Of a DNA stretch of 64,000 nt, positions 1-8,420 are shown in pieces. The translations under genes were made by a program, and so were the position numbers. The stretch comes from Pontibacter lucknowensis (GTDB taxonomy: Bacteria; Bacteroidota; Bacteroidia; Cytophagales; Hymenobacteraceae). Under the pieces are notes generated by a model that was not told the origin of the DNA, did no database searches, and worked only from the letters and a program-made list of their open reading frames with translations. Every line of letters begins with the position of its first letter. Position 1 is the stretch's first letter. The stretch is taken from the NCBI RefSeq assembly GCF_900156415.1, contig NZ_FTNM01000002.1, positions 124,001 through 188,000 on the forward strand. The letters are read 5' to 3'.

Positions 1-57
1 CTGGAGAAAGGGCTGGCACACACACTGAAATGGTATAAAGAAAACAATTGGCTATAA
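1..57 (+). CDS. C-terminal tail of a probable NAD-dependent sugar epimerase/dehydratase (partial)
   Basis: An open frame enters from the left edge and stops with TAA at 55-57. It encodes LEKGLAHTLKWYKENNWL. This ending (a helix, then WYKEN near the stop) is typical of extended short-chain NAD-dependent epimerases/dehydratases that act on nucleotide sugars. Only 18 residues are visible, so the family is a suggestion. It lies about 40 bp before the inositol-phosphate synthase gene on the same strand and may be the first member, or an upstream neighbour, of that operon. Confidence 0.5.
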   Translation: MEKGLAHTLKWYKENNWL

Positions 58-96: not shown

Positions 97-1425
97 ATGG
101 AATATCAAGTAAAACCAGCCGAAGGGCGCTTGGGTATCCTGCTTCCGGGACTGGGAGCAGTTGCCACCACATTTATTGCAGGAGTAGAGGCGATCAGAAA
201 AGGTTTCTCGCAGCCTGTAGGTTCACTTTCTCAGATGGGCAACATCCGCCTGGGTAAGCGTACAGATAACCGCAACCCGCTGATCAAGGACTTTGTGCCA
301 CTGGCAAACCTGAACGACATCGTTTTTGGTGGCTGGGACGTGTATGAAGACAACGTATTCGAGGCTGCCGCAAACGCGAAAGTGCTGGAGCCGATGCTGC
401 TGCACTCGATCAAGCCGGAGCTGGAGGCCATCAAGCCAATGAAAGCGGTGTTTGACAAGGCCTATGCCAAAAACCTGGACGGCACGCACGTGAAAGAGGC
501 CGCAACTAAGTATGAGCTGGCCGAAGCGCTGATGGAAGACATGCGCACTTTCAAAGAAGAGAACGGCTGCGACCGCCTGGTAATCGTATGGTGCGGCTCT
601 ACGGAGGTATACACCGAAGTGAGCGATGTGCACCAGACTGTGGCGGCTTTTGAAGAAGGCCTGCGCAACAACGACCCGCGCATTGCGCCAAGCATGATCT
701 ACGCTTATGCGGCGATTAAAATGGGGGTGCCTTATGCAAACGGTGCCCCTAACCTGACAGTAGACATTCCGGCGCTTGTTGAGCTGGCAAAAGAAAAAGG
801 CGTGGCCATCTCCGGCAAAGACTTCAAAACAGGTCAGACGCTGATGAAAACCATCGTGGCTCCTGGTCTGCAAGCCAGAGCGCTGGGTATCAACGGCTGG
901 TTCTCTTCTAACATCCTGGGTAACCGCGACGGCCTGGTGCTGGACGATCCGGATAACTTCAAAACAAAAGAAGTATCGAAGCTAGGCGTGCTGGAAGACA
1001 TTCTGCACCCGGAGGACAACCCGGAGCTGTACGGCGACCTGTACCACAAAGTACGCATCAACTATTACCCTCCTCACGGCGACAACAAAGAGAGCTGGGA
1101 CAACATCGACATCTTTGGCTGGCTGGGTTACAAGATGCAGATCAAGATCAACTTCCTGTGCCGCGACTCGATTCTGGCTGCACCTATCGTGCTGGATCTG
1201 GCCCTGTTCACCGACCTGGCGCAGCGCTCAGGTATGAGTGGCATACAGGAGTGGCTGTCGTTCTACTACAAGTCGCCGCAGACAGCGGAAGGCCTGCGTC
1301 CGGAGCATGACATCTTCAAGCAACTCATCAAGCTGCAGAATACCCTGCGCCACATCATGGGCGAAGACCTGATCACGCACCTGGGGCTGGACTACTACGA
1401 AGACATGGTAGAAGAGTCGCTGTAA
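97..1425 (+). CDS. ino1: myo-inositol-1-phosphate synthase
   Basis: Converts glucose 6-phosphate to 1L-myo-inositol 1-phosphate using NAD in the cytoplasm; this is the committed step to inositol lipids. The 442-residue product opens with a Rossmann loop (GLGAVATTFIAG) and carries the family segments NPLIKDFVPLANLNDIVFGGWDV near the N terminus and GNRDGLVLDDPDNFKTKEVSK near the middle, where the Asn and Lys contribute to NAD and substrate binding in known synthases. ATG at 97 is preferred; an in-frame GTG at 88 is possible. It heads a tightly spaced gene set ending with an AUR1-like enzyme. Bacteroides thetaiotaomicron has an equivalent cluster (around BT_1526 to BT_1522) for inositol lipids. 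The enzyme call is secure; the end product is inferred from context. Confidence 0.95.
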   Translation: MEYQVKPAEGRLGILLPGLGAVATTFIAGVEAIRKGFSQPVGSLSQMGNIRLGKRTDNRNPLIKDFVPLANLNDIVFGGWDVYEDNVFEAAANAKVLEPMLLHSIKPELEAIKPMKAVFDKAYAKNLDGTHVKEAATKYELAEALMEDMRTFKEENGCDRLVIVWCGSTEVYTEVSDVHQTVAAFEEGLRNNDPRIAPSMIYAYAAIKMGVPYANGAPNLTVDIPALVELAKEKGVAISGKDFKTGQTLMKTIVAPGLQARALGINGWFSSNILGNRDGLVLDDPDNFKTKEVSKLGVLEDILHPEDNPELYGDLYHKVRINYYPPHGDNKESWDNIDIFGWLGYKMQIKINFLCRDSILAAPIVLDLALFTDLAQRSGMSGIQEWLSFYYKSPQTAEGLRPEHDIFKQLIKLQNTLRHIMGEDLITHLGLDYYEDMVEESL

Positions 1426-1434
1426 GCTGAATAT

Positions 1435-1896
1435 ATGCTGAAATTACACAAATTGGTTTCCACCAGCCTGGGCATCGGCTACATAGGCAAGGGGGGCGGT
1501 ACAGTAGCTGCTGTGGCGGTCTGCCTGTGCCTGTATGCGCTGCCGCAGGCAGGTGGGAGCCAGCTTGTTATCTGGCTTCCTGTCATCACCCTGCTGCTCA
1601 CGGTGCTGGGCGTTTGGTCGGCCAACGAAGTGGAGCCGCACTGGGGCAAAGATGATAAGAAAGTAGTGATAGACGAAGTGGCGGGCATGCTGATCACCAT
1701 GCTGTTTATACCTGTGTCGCTCAGCACCCTGCTGGCCGGACTGGTGCTGTTTCGCTTCTTCGATATTGTGAAGCCGCTTTATATCCGAAAGCTGGAGAAA
1801 GTGAGGGGAGGACTGGGCGTGATGCTGGACGACGTAGTGGCGGGTGTTTACGCAAATATTGTTTTACAAATATTGCTTTACCTGAAGCTATTCTAA
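1435..1896 (+). CDS. PgpA-family lipid phosphatase, probable phosphatidylinositol-phosphate phosphatase
   Basis: A 153-residue membrane protein of the phosphatidylglycerophosphatase A family. The N terminus has SLGIGYIGKGGGTVAA and the middle has VVIDEVAGMLIT; the acidic DE pair is the family's metal/active-site signature. About four membrane segments are visible. PgpA normally removes phosphate from phosphatidylglycerol phosphate. Here it lies directly behind inositol-phosphate synthase and upstream of a CDP-alcohol transferase. In the comparable Bacteroides cluster the PgpA-like protein is assigned to dephosphorylating phosphatidylinositol phosphate, and the same role is inferred here. It starts 9 bp after ino1, and its stop codon abuts the next start, indicating co-transcription. 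Confidence 0.85.
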   Translation: MLKLHKLVSTSLGIGYIGKGGGTVAAVAVCLCLYALPQAGGSQLVIWLPVITLLLTVLGVWSANEVEPHWGKDDKKVVIDEVAGMLITMLFIPVSLSTLLAGLVLFRFFDIVKPLYIRKLEKVRGGLGVMLDDVVAGVYANIVLQILLYLKLF

Positions 1897-2268
1897 ATGT
1901 TTACCTTTCTGAAGGCGCAGGCTGCTTCTCTGGTAGCTTCCGCTGTCGACTTTCTGGTCACGGTGCTGGTTGTGGAACTGCTCGGCATTTGGTATGTGGC
2001 AGGCACCGTAATTGGCACTATTTCAGGGGGCATTACACATTTCGCACTCGGCCGAAACTGGGTGTTCCAGGCCGCACATAAAACTGTGCCAACGCAGGCA
2101 GTTAAATATCTGATCATCTGGAAAGGAAGCCTGGTGCTGAACGCATCTGGAGTGTACGTGATAACGCACTATGGTGGTCTGCCTTACCTCTACTCCAAAA
2201 TAATCACTTCGCTGCTTGTCGGCTTTTTCTACAATTACATTTTTCAAAAACGATATGTATTCAGATAG
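1897..2268 (+). CDS. GtrA-family membrane protein
   Basis: A 123-residue protein with four hydrophobic segments and the GtrA pattern: N-terminal FLKAQAASLVASAVDFLVTVLVVELLG, central GGITHFALGRNWVF, and a C-terminal FFYNYIFQKRYVFR basic tail. GtrA proteins are thought to help flip polyprenyl-linked sugars or to support glycosylation of cell-surface polymers. The ATG follows the upstream stop codon with no gap, so translation is probably coupled. Its place inside an inositol-lipid operon suggests a role in moving or modifying the lipid head group, but that is inference. The family call is firm and the substrate is unknown. Confidence 0.82.
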   Translation: MFTFLKAQAASLVASAVDFLVTVLVVELLGIWYVAGTVIGTISGGITHFALGRNWVFQAAHKTVPTQAVKYLIIWKGSLVLNASGVYVITHYGGLPYLYSKIITSLLVGFFYNYIFQKRYVFR

Positions 2269-4858
2269 GAATATGTATAGCGTATACCTATACCGGCTGA
2301 TTTGCTTCATGTTGCTTATGGCGGCAGGAGTACAGGCCACACCAGTGATGGCCCAAGGCCTCACAACGATTAAAGGCACCGTAAAAGACGCTGCCACCAA
2401 CGAGGCGCTCATCGGCGTTTCTGTTTTTATACCTGGCACCAGCACGGGTACCAGCACCGACTACGAAGGGAACTTCCAGATCCGGACAAACCAGATCGTC
2501 AATAAAATACAATTCTCATACCTGGGATACCAGACCGCCTCGATGGCCGTGACGCCGGGGCAGGAGCAGACGCTGCACGTGAAGCTGCAAACCGATGCCA
2601 AAGTGCTGAACGAAGTAGTGGTGGTAGGCAAAAAGCGCAAGGTCAAGTACAGCAACAAGGATAACCCGGCGGTTGACCTGATCAGGCTGATCGTGGACAA
2701 CAAAGCCAGGAACAGGCCGGAAAGCTATGACTACGTGCAGTATGAGCAGTACGAGAAAACGCAGATGTCGCTGGTGAACACACCGGAAAAACTGAAACGC
2801 AATCTCCTGCTGCGTAAATACGACTTCATTACCAACAACATCGACACTACCGTGCTCACGGGAAGGGCGGTGCTTCCTTTCTTCATACAGGAGGAGTTGA
2901 CGGAGCAGTATTACCGCAAGTCTCCGCAGACGCGCAAGACCGTGGTAAAGGCCGAGAAGAAAGTAGACTTTGGCGAGTTTGTCGACAACCAGGGCATCAT
3001 GGCCTACATGCAGCACATGTACCAGGACGTAGACATCTACGACAATAACATTACCATCCTGACCAACCAGTTTCTAAGTCCGATTGCCGACATGGCGCCT
3101 ACGTTCTATAAGTTCTACCTCAAAGACACGGTAAGAACCGATGAGGGACAGCAACTGGCCAGGCTGCAATTTGAGCCGCGTAACCCGGCAGCCTTTATGT
3201 TCACTGGCAGTATGTACGTGACGCTTGACGGCACCTACGCCGTGCAGAGCGTGGACATGGAGGTGAGCAAGGGCGTGAGCATCAACTGGGTGCGCGATCT
3301 GAAGATCAAGCTGGACTTTGAAAAGAACCCGGACGGCCGTTACCACTTGAGCAAAAGCGGCCTTAAAGCCGACTTCGGCCTGACGCAGAACAGCGACATG
3401 GGCTTTTATGGGGAGCGGGTGGTTTCCTTCAGGGACTACAAGGTAAATGAAGCGCAGCCTGCATCGCATTACGAAGGCGAAGCTGTGGTGCGGACGCAAC
3501 CGACCTCCGTGCTGGGCGAGGACTTCTGGCAGGCCAGCCGGCACGACTCGCTTTCGGCCGTGGAGGTGAATACCTATACCAACATCGACAGCCTGGTGAA
3601 CATGAAGTCTTTCAGACGCACCATGGACTGGGGCACCGCCCTGATCGCAGGGTATAAGCGGGCTGGGTCCAAAATCGAAATAGGCCCGATCAACACATTC
3701 TACAGCTTCAATCCGGTGGAGGGCTTCCGGCTGCGCTTTGGTGGACGCACGACAAACAACTTCAGCAAGAAAGTGATGCTGGAGACTTACACTGCTTACG
3801 GTTTCAAAGACGAGCAGTGGAAGTACTACCTTGGCGGCACCTACTCGCTCACAGACCGCTCCATCTGGGAGTTTCCGGTGCGGGCTATCCGGGTAAGTTA
3901 TCAGAAGGACACCAACATACCGGGTCAGGAACTGCAGTTTGTGCAGGAAGACAATTTCCTGCTTTCTTTTAAGCGTGGCGAAAACGACAAGTGGCTATAC
4001 AACGAAACCTACAACATCGATTACCTGCGGGAGTTCGAAAATCACATGTCCTACCGCATCGGCTTCCGGAACTGGAGACAGGCCCCGGCCGGTTCGCTGC
4101 AATACATACCGGTGGGGGATGCCACCGGTGAGGACGAGTCGCAGCCACTTCAGCAACTCACCACCACTGAGGCTTCGATTGAACTGCGCTGGGCTCCGAA
4201 CGAGCAGTTTTTGCAGGGTAAGATCTACCGCACACCGGTGGCTAACCGCCATCCGGTGTTCACGTTGCGCGCAGCTGCTGGTATAAAAGGTACCTTCGGG
4301 GGACAGTTTGAATATCAGAAGGTAGCCCTGAATGTGAGCAAGCGCTTCTACCTGTCACAGCTGGGCTATTCGGATGTGGTAACGGAAGGCGGCTACATTT
4401 TCGGGCAGGTGCCGTTCCCGCTGCTGTCGATTCACCGTGCCAACCAGAGTTACTCATACCAACTGCAGTCATACAACCTGATGAACTTCCTGGAGTTTGT
4501 GAGCGACCAGTATGCCAGCGTGCACATCGACCACGGCTTCAACGGCTTTATCTTTAACAAGCTCCCGTTGATCAAGAAAACAAAGCTGCGGGAGTTTGTC
4601 ACTTTCAAGGCGCTGTATGGCAAAGTGCGCGAAGAGAACATGCCGCACGAAAACCCGGATCTGCTGCGCTTCCCGACAGATGCCAATGGTTTGCCACTCA
4701 CGTATACGCTAGAAAGCAAGCCTTATATGGAGGCGAGCGTAGGTATAGGTAACATTTTTAACTTCTTCAGAATTGACGTAGTGAAGCGTCTGACCTACCT
4801 GGATCATCCAAATGTGTCCGATATAGGTATAAGGGGCAGGTTTAAGTTTGATTTTTAA
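2255..4858 (+). CDS. Large outer-membrane protein: carboxypeptidase regulatory-like domain plus DUF5686 barrel
   Basis: About 867 residues. A hydrophobic leader (YLYRLICFMLLMAAGVQATPVMAQ) precedes a CarboxypepD_reg-like beta-sandwich (TIKGTVKDAATNEALIGVSVFIPGTSTGTSTDYEGNF). Then comes a long beta-rich DUF5686 region ending GIRGRFKFDF, an aromatic C terminus typical of outer-membrane barrels. TonB-dependent receptors share the first domain, but no plug domain was recognised. ATG at 2255 overlaps the end of the GtrA gene by 14 bp; a second ATG at 2273 places the signal peptide better and may be the true start. DUF5686 proteins have no established function. Within this operon it is a candidate outer-membrane partner for inositol lipids. 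Confidence 0.82.
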   Translation: MYSDRNMYSVYLYRLICFMLLMAAGVQATPVMAQGLTTIKGTVKDAATNEALIGVSVFIPGTSTGTSTDYEGNFQIRTNQIVNKIQFSYLGYQTASMAVTPGQEQTLHVKLQTDAKVLNEVVVVGKKRKVKYSNKDNPAVDLIRLIVDNKARNRPESYDYVQYEQYEKTQMSLVNTPEKLKRNLLLRKYDFITNNIDTTVLTGRAVLPFFIQEELTEQYYRKSPQTRKTVVKAEKKVDFGEFVDNQGIMAYMQHMYQDVDIYDNNITILTNQFLSPIADMAPTFYKFYLKDTVRTDEGQQLARLQFEPRNPAAFMFTGSMYVTLDGTYAVQSVDMEVSKGVSINWVRDLKIKLDFEKNPDGRYHLSKSGLKADFGLTQNSDMGFYGERVVSFRDYKVNEAQPASHYEGEAVVRTQPTSVLGEDFWQASRHDSLSAVEVNTYTNIDSLVNMKSFRRTMDWGTALIAGYKRAGSKIEIGPINTFYSFNPVEGFRLRFGGRTTNNFSKKVMLETYTAYGFKDEQWKYYLGGTYSLTDRSIWEFPVRAIRVSYQKDTNIPGQELQFVQEDNFLLSFKRGENDKWLYNETYNIDYLREFENHMSYRIGFRNWRQAPAGSLQYIPVGDATGEDESQPLQQLTTTEASIELRWAPNEQFLQGKIYRTPVANRHPVFTLRAAAGIKGTFGGQFEYQKVALNVSKRFYLSQLGYSDVVTEGGYIFGQVPFPLLSIHRANQSYSYQLQSYNLMNFLEFVSDQYASVHIDHGFNGFIFNKLPLIKKTKLREFVTFKALYGKVREENMPHENPDLLRFPTDANGLPLTYTLESKPYMEASVGIGNIFNFFRIDVVKRLTYLDHPNVSDIGIRGRFKFDF

Positions 4859-4876
4859 TACTTACAACATAGAAGT

Positions 4877-5596
4877 ATGGACATGAAATCAGTGCGCGAC
4901 GCGTTGCAGCAGGGAATCTACACGGTGATCAACCCTTTTGTGCGACTCCTGATCAGGCTGGGCTTCACACCCAACGCTGTTACCACCACCGGGCTTATCC
5001 TGAACATAGGGGTAGCAGCCATCTTTATCTGGGGCGGGGAAATTAGCAACCGGGGTGAGCTCGGATACGTGGGCTGGGCCGGAGCGCTGGTGCTGTTTGC
5101 CGGCGTGTTCGACATGCTCGACGGGCAGGTGGCCAGGCTGGGCAATATGAAGTCCACTTTCGGGGCCATGTACGACTCGGTGCTCGACCGCTACAGTGAA
5201 ATGATCATGTTCATGGGTATCTGCTATTACCTGATTTCGCACCACTATCTACTCAGTTCACTCTTTGCCTTCATCGCCCTGATTGGCTCGATGATGGTGA
5301 GCTATACCCGGGCCCGCGCCGAGGGGCTGGGCGTGGAGTGCAAGGGTGGCCTGATGCAGCGCCCGGAGCGGGTCGTGCTGATCGGGGTATCGGCTATCGC
5401 CTGTGGTATTACCTACTATTTTGTGGGTGCAGATTACAAGGTATACGTGCCGGGCATTCCATTTCATATTTTTGAGACGATGTCGGTGTTCACACTGCCT
5501 ATCACCGTGATGGCGGTGATGACGAACATCACAGCTTATAACAGGCTGATGGACTCCAAAAAAGCCATGGAGCAGAAAGAGATGGCAACCCGCTAA
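4877..5596 (+). CDS. CDP-alcohol phosphatidyltransferase, probable phosphatidylinositol-phosphate synthase
   Basis: A 239-residue integral membrane enzyme of the CDP-alcohol phosphotransferase family. The full catalytic motif DGx2ARx8Gx3Dx3D is present, with D82, G83, R87, G96, D100 and D104 in LDGQVARLGN and the following FGAMYDSVLD. Such enzymes exchange CMP on CDP-diacylglycerol for an alcohol. With ino1 and a PgpA-like phosphatase upstream, the likely acceptor is inositol 1-phosphate, giving phosphatidylinositol phosphate, as in the comparable Bacteroides cluster. Five or six membrane helices are visible. Other acceptors (glycerol phosphate, serine) cannot be excluded from sequence. It begins 18 bp after the outer-membrane protein gene. 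Confidence 0.88.
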   Translation: MDMKSVRDALQQGIYTVINPFVRLLIRLGFTPNAVTTTGLILNIGVAAIFIWGGEISNRGELGYVGWAGALVLFAGVFDMLDGQVARLGNMKSTFGAMYDSVLDRYSEMIMFMGICYYLISHHYLLSSLFAFIALIGSMMVSYTRARAEGLGVECKGGLMQRPERVVLIGVSAIACGITYYFVGADYKVYVPGIPFHIFETMSVFTLPITVMAVMTNITAYNRLMDSKKAMEQKEMATR

Positions 5597-5612
5597 GGAG
5601 AAGCTTAACAAC

Positions 5613-6173
5613 GTGAGAAAAATCTTTTACCCGGCACTCCTTCTGCTTTACACAGGTATAGGAAGTGCCAGCGGCCACAGTCCGGCAGGTATAGCCGAAG
5701 CAAAAGCCGACACACTGCCGGTGCCGAAGGGCATCAAAGAGCTGCTGTTTTATGTGCAGCGCGACCCGAATGCCAACACGGTTGTGTACGAACTGAACCG
5801 GACGACGCAGGGAGCGCTGAACGAAGCGGAGCCGATTCACCCGTTCTGGATCCGGTATGCGGATGGGGGAGAGCAGAAGGAGCTGAATTACATTCAGCGC
5901 AAATTTGCCTACGGTCTGAACACCAAAAAACTGGGCAAAGACCACTATGAGATCAAGTTCGTGAGTTATGGCAAACTGGCGCTATACCTACGCAAGACGG
6001 CCGATGGCAAGTACCGTGTCTATACCACGATAAACAGGGAAGAGGCTATACTGGACCGCGTGTTTGTGCGGATCGAAGGCGGTACATTTTGGGTGCCCAA
6101 TGTGCTGTATGTGGAGCTGAGCGGCCGCGATGCCGCTACCGGGAAGGCAGTAACAGGACGTTTTAAACCTTAG
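5613..6173 (+). CDS. DUF4833 domain secreted protein
   Basis: A 186-residue protein with an N-terminal signal peptide (RKIFYPALLLLYTGIGSASG) followed by a beta-rich domain containing LLFYVQRDPNANTVVYELN and HPFWIRYADGGEQKELNYIQRKFAYGL, which I recognise as DUF4833. No catalytic motif is evident. The start is GTG at 5613, preceded by AAGGAG at 5595-5600, a plausible ribosome-binding site. It sits between the phosphatidyltransferase and the fatty-acid hydroxylase with spacings of 16 and 7 bp, so it belongs to the same operon. Function is unknown. A periplasmic lipid-handling role would fit the context but has no direct support. Confidence 0.72.
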   Translation: MRKIFYPALLLLYTGIGSASGHSPAGIAEAKADTLPVPKGIKELLFYVQRDPNANTVVYELNRTTQGALNEAEPIHPFWIRYADGGEQKELNYIQRKFAYGLNTKKLGKDHYEIKFVSYGKLALYLRKTADGKYRVYTTINREEAILDRVFVRIEGGTFWVPNVLYVELSGRDAATGKAVTGRFKP

Positions 6174-6180
6174 TTTACAG

Positions 6181-6801
6181 ATGAAAAAGAATTTCGTGTC
6201 TAACTCGCAGGAGTCTGTCAGGATGTTCAGGTATGACTGGATGGAAGCGCTGTCCAAAGTGCACTGGACGGTGCCGCTTTACATATACGTGCCGGTCATC
6301 CTCTTCCTGAGCTGGCTGGCGCTATATGTGGAGCAACTGTCGGTGCTTTTCTTTATAGGCTATGCCACACTTGGCCTGTTTGTCTGGACGCTAACCGAGT
6401 ATGTGCTGCACCGCTTCGTGTTTCATTATGTGCCGAAGGCAAAGTGGGCCCTGCGCCTGCACTTTATTTTCCACGGTGTGCACCACGACTACCCGAACGA
6501 TACCAGGCGGCTGGTGATGCCACCATCAGCCAGCATCCCCATGGCTACGGCGCTGTATTTTCTATTTGCATTGCTGCTGTCGGGAGGGGAGCTGTATGCT
6601 TTTTTTGCAGCCTTTCTGTTGGGCTATCTCTTTTATGATATTTCCCATTATGCCCTGCACCACTTCAACTTTAAAGGTGAGTTCTGGAAGAAGCTGAAAA
6701 AGCACCACATGCTGCATCACTACTCCGATGCTACAAAAGGCTACGGCGTGAGTTCTTCTCTCTGGGACAAGATTTTCGGTTCTGATTTTGACAAAAAATA
6801 A
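6181..6801 (+). CDS. Fatty acid/sphingolipid hydroxylase (sterol desaturase superfamily)
   Basis: A 206-residue membrane di-iron enzyme. The histidine clusters are all visible: HRFVFH, HFIFHGVHHDYPND, HYALHH and KKHHMLHHYSD. The pattern and length match the catalytic domain of fatty acid 2-hydroxylase (Scs7/FA2H), which hydroxylates the alpha carbon of the ceramide N-acyl chain using oxygen. No cytochrome b5 domain is fused, so an external electron donor is needed. Four helices surround the His boxes. The stop codon lies only 1 bp before the ATG of the AUR1-like gene, which strongly suggests that it acts on the same lipid. A carotenoid hydroxylase is an alternative, but the HHDYPNDTRRL segment favours FA2H. 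Confidence 0.85.
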   Translation: MKKNFVSNSQESVRMFRYDWMEALSKVHWTVPLYIYVPVILFLSWLALYVEQLSVLFFIGYATLGLFVWTLTEYVLHRFVFHYVPKAKWALRLHFIFHGVHHDYPNDTRRLVMPPSASIPMATALYFLFALLLSGGELYAFFAAFLLGYLFYDISHYALHHFNFKGEFWKKLKKHHMLHHYSDATKGYGVSSSLWDKIFGSDFDKK

Positions 6802-6802
6802 A

Positions 6803-7753
6803 ATGAGTTTAACAACTACGGCAACAGAGGGGAAGGCGAAAGTAACACGGAAGAATGCCCTTGTTGTAGCCGCCCTTTCGATCGGTTATCTGCTGCTCTC
6901 GTACCTGCTGGTGGGGTTCAAGTCTGATCAGCTGGTGCTGGTGGGGCTGGCAAACGCCCTCTACTTTGCAACGCCCATCACCCGTAAGTTCATCACCGGC
7001 TTCTCTATCTTTATCGTGTTCTGGGTGCTCTACGATTACATGAAAGCCTTCCCGAACTACTGGTTCAACACCGTGCACATCGAGGACCTGTACAATACCG
7101 AGAAAGCAGTGTTCGGCATCCGGAATGGCGAAGGTATACTGAGCCCCAATGAATTCTGGCAGCAGCACAGCAACGCCTTTCTGGATGTGATGAGCGGTAT
7201 CTTCTACCTCAGCTGGATACCGGTGCCGCTGGCTTTTGCCGGCTTTCTGTTTTTCTGGAACCGGCAGCAGTTTGTGTACTTTTCGCTCACGTTTCTGCTC
7301 GTCAACCTGCTGGGATTTGTGGTCTACTACCTATACCCGGCTGCGCCGCCCTGGTACGTGCAGCTGCATGGTTTTGAGTTCATCGCCAAAACACCCGGCA
7401 ACACGGCAGGCCTGGTGCGCTTCGATGAGTTTTTTGGTATCACCGTTTTCCATTCGCTCTATGCCAAGGGCTCCAATGTGTTTGCAGCCATGCCTTCGCT
7501 TCATTCCGCTTATCCGCTTATCGTGCTCTATTATGCCTTGAAGAACAGGCTAGGACTGGTAGCAAAAGTATTCTTTACCATCATCACGGTGGGTATCTGG
7601 TTTGCGGCGGTCTATACCTTGCACCACTACGTGCTGGATGTACTGGCAGGTATAGTATGCGCTTCCTGTGGCATCCTCTTGTTCAACTGGCTGGTGGCCA
7701 GAGAAGGTGCTGTGAGCAGAGCCATCGGGCAATTTGTAGCCGCCATCCGCTAA
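6803..7753 (+). CDS. AUR1-like PAP2 enzyme, probable inositol phosphorylceramide synthase
   Basis: A 316-residue polytopic membrane protein of the PAP2/AUR1 class. The catalytic motifs are AAMPSLHSAYPLIVLYY and YTLHHYVLDVLAGI, in which the two histidines and the aspartate correspond to the nucleophile and acid/base residues of phosphotransfer PAP2 enzymes. The yeast relative AUR1 moves phosphoinositol from phosphatidylinositol to ceramide. The gene ends an operon that can make phosphatidylinositol and hydroxylate ceramide, so IPC synthase is the best reading; the comparable Bacteroides cluster ends the same way. The in-frame TTG at 6788 would overlap the hydroxylase gene, so ATG 6803 was chosen. 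Confidence 0.83.
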   Translation: MSLTTTATEGKAKVTRKNALVVAALSIGYLLLSYLLVGFKSDQLVLVGLANALYFATPITRKFITGFSIFIVFWVLYDYMKAFPNYWFNTVHIEDLYNTEKAVFGIRNGEGILSPNEFWQQHSNAFLDVMSGIFYLSWIPVPLAFAGFLFFWNRQQFVYFSLTFLLVNLLGFVVYYLYPAAPPWYVQLHGFEFIAKTPGNTAGLVRFDEFFGITVFHSLYAKGSNVFAAMPSLHSAYPLIVLYYALKNRLGLVAKVFFTIITVGIWFAAVYTLHHYVLDVLAGIVCASCGILLFNWLVAREGAVSRAIGQFVAAIR

Positions 7754-7790: not shown

Positions 7791-8420
7791 ATGACAGAAG
7801 ATAACTTCGCCATACAAAACAAGCGGCTCTATGAGCAGCTGCTCAAGCTGACAGCTGGCGACTACCAGGCCTTTCTGTACGACTGCGACGGCACGCTGGC
7901 GGATAACATGCAGGCACACAAAGATACTTACGTAAAGGTGGCTGCCGGTCAGGGCATCACAATCGATCCGGCCATTGTAGACGAGTTTGCCGGACTGCCT
8001 ATACCTGCTGTGGTCGTTGAGATCAACAAGCGATACGGGAGCAGCTTCGATCCGGAGGCATTTGAAAGATCAAAATCAGAGCTGTTCTACCACGAGTTCA
8101 TCTCCGAGACAAAGCCCGTGCAGTTTGTGGTAGACCACCTGGTAGCCCATGCCGGTAAGGTGAGGATCGGCGTGGTATCAGGCGGCTCCAGGAAGATGAT
8201 TCAGAAGACGCTGGAGGTGCTGCAGATCGATCATTTGGTGGAAGTGCTGGTATGTGCCGGTGATACAGGGAAGGGAAAGCCTTTTCCAGACCCGTTTTTG
8301 CTGGCGGCAGAAAAGCTGGGCGTAGCACCCGAACATTGTCTGGTGTTTGAGGACGGGGTGCCCGGCGTGCAGGCTGCTGAGGCTGCTGGTATGCAGTGGA
8401 TCAGGGTAGATCAGGTATAG
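7791..8420 (+). CDS. HAD-superfamily sugar phosphatase/phosphoglucomutase-like hydrolase
   Basis: A 209-residue soluble protein with the four HAD motifs: DCDGT (D31 and D33), VVSGGSRKM, the lysine region GDTGKGKP and FEDGVPGVQAA. The helical cap lies between motifs I and II (residues ~45-105), as in beta-phosphoglucomutase and the YqaB-type fructose-1-phosphatase. It probably dephosphorylates a small sugar phosphate. It follows the AUR1-like gene by 37 bp and precedes a strong terminator, so it may be the last gene of the lipid operon. A role in recycling inositol or another phosphate is only a guess. Confidence 0.8.
   Translation: MTEDNFAIQNKRLYEQLLKLTAGDYQAFLYDCDGTLADNMQAHKDTYVKVAAGQGITIDPAIVDEFAGLPIPAVVVEINKRYGSSFDPEAFERSKSELFYHEFISETKPVQFVVDHLVAHAGKVRIGVVSGGSRKMIQKTLEVLQIDHLVEVLVCAGDTGKGKPFPDPFLLAAEKLGVAPEHCLVFEDGVPGVQAAEAAGMQWIRVDQV

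Follow-up and report, generated by a model that had tools for sequence, protein, structure and literature searches.

We analyzed a window of 64,000 nucleotides from Pontibacter lucknowensis, positions 124,001 to 188,000 of contig NZ_FTNM01000002.1 (C8:124001-188000 in our numbering) in a genome of 4.47 Mb. At its 5′ end lies a run of eight genes on one strand, from ino1 to a PAP2-family gene, with the apparent makings of an inositol sphingolipid pathway. The successive gaps are 9, 0, 4, 18, 16, 7, and 1 bp, sizes that depend on the starts chosen for the DUF5686 and PAP2 genes. The original prediction, made from the sequence alone, had named five of these genes (ino1, a PgpA-like phosphatase, a CDP-alcohol transferase, an FA2H-like hydroxylase, and an AUR1-like PAP2 protein) as one tightly spaced operon. 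All five are real: they lie intact on the + strand, and profile searches confirmed the stated families. The tight spacing also held (gaps of 0 to 18 bp), but the GtrA, DUF5686, and DUF4833 genes had gone unlisted, and the run starts upstream of ino1, with genes for a serine palmitoyltransferase (SPT), a GNAT protein, and a NAD-epimerase-type protein immediately 5′, beyond the window edge. The features of the run, in window positions, are as follows.

1..57, + strand: 3′ end of the gene for a candidate CerR (NAD-epimerase/dehydratase-type, 330 aa in full; upstream sequence and Pfam family).
97..1425, + strand: INO1, myo-inositol-1-phosphate synthase (MIPS) (PF07994, 349 bits; PF01658, 109.9 bits; 7nwr, E 8.8e-174).
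1435..1896, + strand: PgpA-family phosphatase, candidate phosphatidylinositol phosphate (PIP) phosphatase, in the BT_1525 position (PF04608, 131.6 bits, cut-off 28).
1897..2268, + strand: GtrA-family membrane protein, in the BT_1524 position (PF04138, 59.6 bits, cut-off 26.1).
2273..4858, + strand: DUF5686 protein (PF18939, 190.3 bits; predicted structure; Foldseek).
4877..5596, + strand: CDP-alcohol phosphatidyltransferase, predicted PIP synthase (PIPS) (NF052561, 393.9 bits, cut-off 350; motif).
5613..6173, + strand: DUF4833 protein, exported-looking (PF16117, 171.3 bits; fusions in relatives; model).
6181..6801, + strand: predicted FA2H/Scs7-type fatty acid 2-hydroxylase (PF04116, 76.4 bits, cut-off 31; Scs7 4zr1 match; histidine motifs).
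6803..7753, + strand: PAP2/AUR1-like (PAP2_3) candidate inositol phosphorylceramide (IPC) synthase (NF052609, below cut-off; AUR1 9vj3; motifs).

The DUF5686 start at 2273 was chosen, and an alternative ATG at 2255 is possible. Upstream sequence was taken from locus L175 (9926-14058), where the window position equals the L175 position minus 14001. Promoter and terminator scans of two stretches gave counts near or slightly above those of shuffled sequence. The closest named relative is Pontibacter sp. FD36, with 97% identity in the hydroxylase and 98% in PIPS.

Upstream of ino1, the 3′ end of the SPT gene overlaps the GNAT frame, the GNAT and NAD-epimerase-type genes overlap by 4 bp, and the latter ends 39 bp ahead of the ino1 ATG. 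SPT scored over the NF047600 (SerpalmtaseCFB) cut-off (709.8 bits versus 640) and matched the solved serine palmitoyltransferase 3a2b (E 5.3e-170). Pfam placed the other two proteins in GNAT (25.5 bits) and Epimerase (118.6 bits), and family and position make them candidates for the ceramide synthase and CerR, respectively. By description, they are the same kinds of enzyme as the N-acyltransferase bCerS and the reductase CerR, with NDUFA9 homology, of Caulobacter (PMC11087976, PMC11324152). The Bacteroides thetaiotaomicron reductase BT_0972 is a short-chain dehydrogenase/reductase (SDR) and is not clustered with SPT (PMC9278070).

The head-group genes have counterparts of known function. Knockouts in B. 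thetaiotaomicron point to a MIPS in BT_1526, a PIP phosphatase in BT_1525, a PIP synthase in BT_1523, and a phosphatidylinositol (PI)-dihydroceramide synthase in BT_1522 (PMC9246714, PMC8791184); a BT_1525 deletion was not obtained in PMC8791184, and the phosphatase role was shown in PMC9246714. Loss of the GtrA-like BT_1524 left thin-layer chromatography unchanged in one study (PMC9246714) and lowered IPC in the other (PMC8791184). Both papers concern Bacteroides and mostly host-associated kin. The window shares all five families of the BT_1522-BT_1526 cluster in the same order (MIPS-PgpA-GtrA-PIPS-PAP2, also found in clusters L177 and L178), but it has three further genes inside (DUF5686, DUF4833, and FA2H) and three ahead of ino1 (SPT, GNAT, and reductase). 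The best solved relative of INO1 was 7nwr (582 bits), which we take to be the structure of BT_1526. PIPS scored over NF052561, the NCBI PIP-synthase equivalog model named after BT_1523, is related to solved PIP synthases (6wm5, E 7.8e-21), and carries the motif DGx2ARx8Gx3Dx3D intact, as originally noted. A transferase using only glycerol phosphate or serine, which had been named as the case that would undo the prediction, was rejected, with PIPS reaching just 29.8 bits against the pgsA model and 27.5 bits against pssA. In a broader form of this alternative, the transferase would make PI directly, or phosphatidylglycerol or phosphatidylserine, and PgpA would be an ordinary phosphatidylglycerophosphatase. 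The PgpA sequence gives no sign of substrate specificity and so leaves room for this, but with the BT_1523 model passed, pgsA and pssA scores of at most 30 bits, and INO1 and PgpA neighbors that suit PIP chemistry, as for BT_1525 (PMC9246714), we regard it as very improbable.

For the PAP2 protein, the single NCBIfam match was to PI-dihydroceramide synthase (NF052609). It also aligned to AUR1 (9vj3, E 6.5e-16) across residues 59-292, with PSLH and HYxxD at residues 231 and 275 of 316 aa; we take these to be the catalytic motifs of AUR1-like enzymes.

The hydroxylase (206 aa) has PF04116 as its sole Pfam domain. It is related to Scs7 (4zr1, E 6.4e-35, residues 19-201), and its solved relatives are two Scs7 entries only, aligned through the block HGxHHxxPxDxxRLVMPP, which presumably marks FA2H rather than Sur2. 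Its histidine blocks are HRFVFH, HFIFHGVHHDYPNDTRRLVMPP, DISHYALHH, and HMLHH, and RLVMPP is also present. We compared its distribution with that of SPT in a sample of 396 genomes of the class. Of the 44 genomes in which FA2H scored strongly (>190 bits), 18 had SPT over cut-off, versus 1 of 36 with a weak or no hit, the latter hand-picked with 7 further such genomes left out. Within the 44, SPT passed the cut-off in 16 of the 17 genomes with FA2H identity of at least 60%; at 46-58%, it did so in 2 of 27. A strong PAP2 hit (at least 288 bits) was present in 29 genomes, of which 19 had SPT over cut-off, including all 13 with FA2H beside PAP2. FA2H lay beside PAP2 in 0 of the 10 PAP2 genomes without SPT over cut-off, two of which reach 490-505 bits and eight of which have no SPT match above 371. 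The Fisher p for adjacency versus SPT was 4e-4, and such values serve as guides only because the genomes share ancestry. Since operon-type FA2H goes with SPT in both comparisons (16 of 17; 13 versus 0), the co-occurrence favors ceramide as its substrate.

We therefore consider it probable, by analogy with characterized relatives, that one operon, starting upstream of the window, directs the de novo synthesis of a 2-hydroxylated IPC. Gene identities, order, spacing, conservation, and fusions are observed, of which gene content and order are solid; the reactions, each inferred from such relatives, would run as follows. SPT would join serine and acyl-CoA, the GNAT protein would N-acylate the product, and the epimerase-type reductase would reduce it, giving dihydroceramide. 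INO1 would convert glucose-6-phosphate to inositol phosphate, PIPS would combine this with CDP-diacylglycerol to give PIP, and PgpA would dephosphorylate PIP to PI. The FA2H-type di-metal enzyme would hydroxylate C2 of the ceramide N-acyl chain, and the AUR1-like PAP2 protein would use PI as the phosphoinositol donor for ceramide. The remaining proteins, GtrA, DUF4833, and DUF5686, would be helpers, most likely in lipid handling or export on the periplasmic and outer-membrane side. The earlier reading of a Bacteroides-type inositol (sphingo)lipid operon thus appears sound, given the NF052561 score, the 7nwr match, the AUR1 alignment, and the presence of SPT in the run.

Several observations weigh against parts of this pathway. 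Eukaryotic FA2H/Scs7 members have a fused cytochrome b5 domain; Pfam showed no such built-in electron donor here. The lower-identity FA2H relatives (46-58%) occur mostly in genomes without SPT over cut-off (25 of 27), and four PAP2 genomes of that kind (G412, G476, G501, and G542) carry an FA2H relative elsewhere, at 52-58% identity. FA2H is not beside PAP2 in 6 of the 19 SPT-positive PAP2 genomes and is therefore an add-on. Elsewhere in the P. lucknowensis genome lies a gene for a likely cysteate C-fatty acyltransferase of sulfonolipid synthesis (L164 1372-2607, G000:C8:448484-449617; match to 28eh, 617 bits, E 1.3e-184), so sulfonolipids are another possible substrate. The hydroxylase could thus modify not the N-acyl C2 but the long-chain base (Sur2-like, at C4) or a different lipid, for instance a sulfonolipid, and PF04116 also includes sterol and long-chain-base hydroxylases. 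We hold this to be unlikely, since the only solved relatives matched are entries for Scs7, a ceramide fatty acid hydroxylase, and since SPT accompanies the high-identity group.

The remaining points concern the PAP2 enzyme, which scored 338.1 bits, under the NF052609 equivalog cut-off of 480. Only 3 of the 396 class genomes pass this cut-off, in clusters with no FA2H or DUF4833 nearby, and it may therefore be fitted to BT_1522 and its close kin. In addition, no SPT-like match exceeds 371 bits in 8 of the 29 strong-PAP2 genomes, so the family may use other acceptors; in two of them, G249 and G670, the loci (L105 and L108) had no SPT, GNAT, or reductase match. The acceptor for the phosphoinositol (or other phospho head group) that PAP2 moves could accordingly be something other than ceramide, with the operon mainly serving PI and another inositol lipid. 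Here, however, SPT, GNAT, and reductase genes stand in the same run as PAP2, and the AUR1 alignment spans both catalytic motifs, which makes this alternative decidedly improbable. As a separate observation, the eight SPT-poor genomes, namely G249 (L105), G670 (L108), G501 (L115), G542 (L119), G654 (L135), G621 (L132), G525 (L136), and G649 (L128), carry inositol clusters with an AUR1-like PAP2 despite having no recognizable CFB-type SPT.

The pathway is of a known kind, in a fuller form. New relative to the Bacteroides cluster are FA2H upstream of PAP2, the linkage to ceramide genes, DUF4833, and a divergent DUF5686. The pathway recurs, with ceramide genes and the fungal-type hydroxylase linked, in Pontibacter, Rufibacter, Dyadobacter, Chitinophaga, Pedobacter, and Mucilaginibacter, which are usually regarded as environmental genera. 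FA2H is a candidate gene for sphingolipid 2-hydroxylation in Bacteroidota. Ceramide phosphoinositol with 2-hydroxy acyl chains was reportedly described in Sphingobacterium in 2003. Our literature searches, which covered few subscription papers, turned up no article on a bacterial gene for FA2H or another fatty acid hydroxylase in connection with Bacteroidetes sphingolipids, and no mention of DUF4833 or DUF5686; PMC7721639 treats host FA2H and a bacterial P450.

Three clusters in our set (L177, L178, and L179), called Bacteroides-kind here because their PAP2 passes NF052609, allowed a direct comparison. None had DUF4833, FA2H, or a full DUF5686 within about 20 kb; frames weakly like the DUF5686 profile scored 50.5 bits in L178 and 37.4 bits in L177, versus 1331 and 1260 for two operon copies searched alongside. 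SPT was on another contig in all three draft assemblies. Identity to the window was 48-59% in PIPS and 43-44% in PAP2. Bacteroides cluster members had been expected as best matches, but among named organisms Pontibacter and Rufibacter stand closest. A PIPS tree of 79 rows, whose root is uncertain owing to a very long branch to the outgroup, put the three Bacteroides-kind sequences in one small clade (support 100/98), outside the large group to which the named environmental genera belong.

Other known systems share parts of the scheme. An alternative cluster with NTP transferase, Ptrans, and HAD genes (putative CDP-inositol route) in B. vulgatus and Prevotella has the same likely end product (PMC9246714) but other head-group enzymes, whereas the window carries genes of the PIP route. 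Fungal AUR1 (IPC synthase) and Scs7 (ceramide fatty acid 2-hydroxylase) belong to enzyme families also present in the window, which differs in its bacterial-type ceramide core, its hydroxylase without cytochrome b5, and PI expected via PIP. In Caulobacter, CC_0202 is a DesA-family desaturase/hydroxylase that acts on the amide-linked acyl chain of sphingolipids (PMC11324152). The reaction type is that proposed for FA2H, but the family, by description, differs from PF04116.

Conservation was assessed in 65 loci fetched by FA2H similarity, a selection that makes them uninformative on cluster frequency. Because PIPS and PAP2 accompany FA2H in 46 of the 65, the association is not due to chance. Five others have an alternative transferase, and 14 have neither head-group module (2 at FA2H identity of at least 60%, 12 lower); FA2H was accordingly set aside as an inositol-lipid marker. 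Among the 46 loci, we found DUF4833 in 45, DUF5686 in 39, SPT in 37, GtrA in 36, reductase in 35, PgpA in 35, GNAT in 33, INO1 in 28, and TetR in 22, where some absences come from cut flanks and some are real. In 45 of them, FA2H precedes PAP2 by no more than 150 bp. Six Dyadobacter loci have no INO1 between reductase and PgpA, and four Taibaiella loci (L023, L025, L029, and L038) have no upstream SPT, INO1, or PgpA match. The pathway is scattered rather than common, given strong PAP2 hits in 29 of the 396 class genomes (weak only in 5 more; FA2H adjacent in 13 of the 29) and PIPS over cut-off in 14 of 395 genomes of a phylum sample. Neither PIPS nor PAP2 was found in 3 of 3 sampled genomes of another genus of the same family.

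Two of the accessory genes bear on where the lipid may go. DUF4833, a separate gene in the window, forms a single open frame of 426-451 aa with PIPS in 19 of 43 loci (L017-L020, L022, L023, L025-L029, L037-L042, L048, and L055; at about 8.6-10.0 kb in most). The 43 are those of the 65-locus set with a readable ATG-started frame, including four Runella/Larkinella loci without PIPS; 6 more loci showed no such frame. This fusion ties DUF4833 to PI synthesis. A hydrophobic stretch separates the two parts (residues 242-267 in L017). Enzymes of the PIPS family have six helices with both ends inside, so a hydrophobic linker following them would make DUF4833 periplasmic, on the side on which the PAP2 active site is also expected. 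The DUF4833 model was confident, with a predicted local distance difference test (pLDDT) score of 85.8, and Foldseek found no match for it in the PDB at E ≤ 0.001.

DUF4833 gave 58 hits in 49 of the 396 class genomes. Twenty-seven are near PIPS or an alternative transferase (25, plus 1, plus the window) and 31 are elsewhere, some of them on short contig ends (locus L146 contains only the flank of its hit). We therefore set DUF4833 aside as a strict inositol-lipid marker. Some of the 31 adjoin genes for an SDR and a PhyH-type protein, together with GtrA and a further CDP-alcohol transferase; others have unrelated surroundings. Clustering revealed SDR-PhyH-CDP-alcohol transferase-GtrA runs adjoining DUF4833 in L101, L110, and L140 (the Pfam check covered members of L101 and L099 only, and the L140 DUF4833 came from tblastn). 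Such runs may make some other hydroxylated lipid and use a PhyH-type protein where the operon has FA2H.

The DUF5686 protein has a signal-peptide-like N-terminus, a CarboxypepD_reg domain, and a predicted outer-membrane-type β-barrel. The operon copy is divergent, at 190.6 bits versus 864 and 749 for two other copies in the same genome, where a fourth hit lies in two pieces. In its predicted structure (pLDDT 75.9; predicted template modeling score 0.56), the C-terminal strand set was paired by Foldseek with BamA and the mitochondrial SAM barrel (best E 5.3e-9). Against isolated BamA barrels, template modeling scores were 0.51-0.57 by target and just 0.25-0.29 by query, with root-mean-square deviations of about 7-11. 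The predicted barrel may resemble that of BamA. Members of the Omp85/BamA family have POTRA domains and an RG(F/Y) loop motif. Pfam found CarboxypepD_reg and no POTRA in DUF5686, and RG[FYW] is absent from the whole protein; for these reasons, we did not adopt the name Omp85 for it. A carboxypeptidase-regulatory-like protein (BT_1527 homologue) is near both inositol cluster types (PMC9246714) and may, by description, be a distant counterpart. DUF5686 is a barrel candidate for the question of how such lipids get to the outer membrane.

Accessory genes also flank other head-group modules and are thus not tied to one route. Runella/Larkinella loci L021, L024, L033, and L045 have reductase, DUF5686, and an alternative module, followed by DUF4833 and FA2H; L045 also shows part of a GNAT gene at the locus edge, and L036 is similar but gave no DUF4833 hit. 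The module comprises NTP-transferase-like, Pfam-less, CDP-alcohol transferase, flippase-like, HAD-like, and PfkB-like genes, names assigned by reading the sequence except for one protein scanned with Pfam. By gene content and order, it fits the putative CDP-inositol cluster of PMC9246714. In L099 (2556-10233), the order is SPT-GNAT-DUF5686-FA2H-CDP-alcohol transferase-GtrA-DUF4833, without INO1, PIPS, or PAP2, and this module is a candidate for a third head group. A more speculative and rather doubtful extension is that the operon forms a complete make-and-deliver sphingolipid unit. Ceramide genes and FA2H would be fixed, the head-group module would be swappable (PIP route; CDP-inositol type in Runella/Larkinella; the third CDP-alcohol module in L099), and DUF4833 and the BamA-like DUF5686 would deliver the lipid to the outer membrane. 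If true, it would offer a candidate path by which Bacteroidota sphingolipids are exported. In another locus, L097, DUF5686 and DUF4833 flank a CDP-inositol-type module without FA2H.

Two neighboring genes complete the picture. A HAD hydrolase gene (7791..8420, + strand) follows PAP2 and probably lies outside the conserved operon; it was rejected as a member because it is near the cluster in just four Pontibacter loci (L002, L005, L006, and L007) among the 65. At the other end, a TetR gene (L175 9926-10516) lies 212 bp upstream of SPT. Its product is weakly FadR-like (66 bits, under the cut-off of 200) and is a candidate acyl-CoA-responsive regulator of the operon; among the 46 similar loci, 16 have a TetR match ahead of SPT and 6 have one after PAP2.

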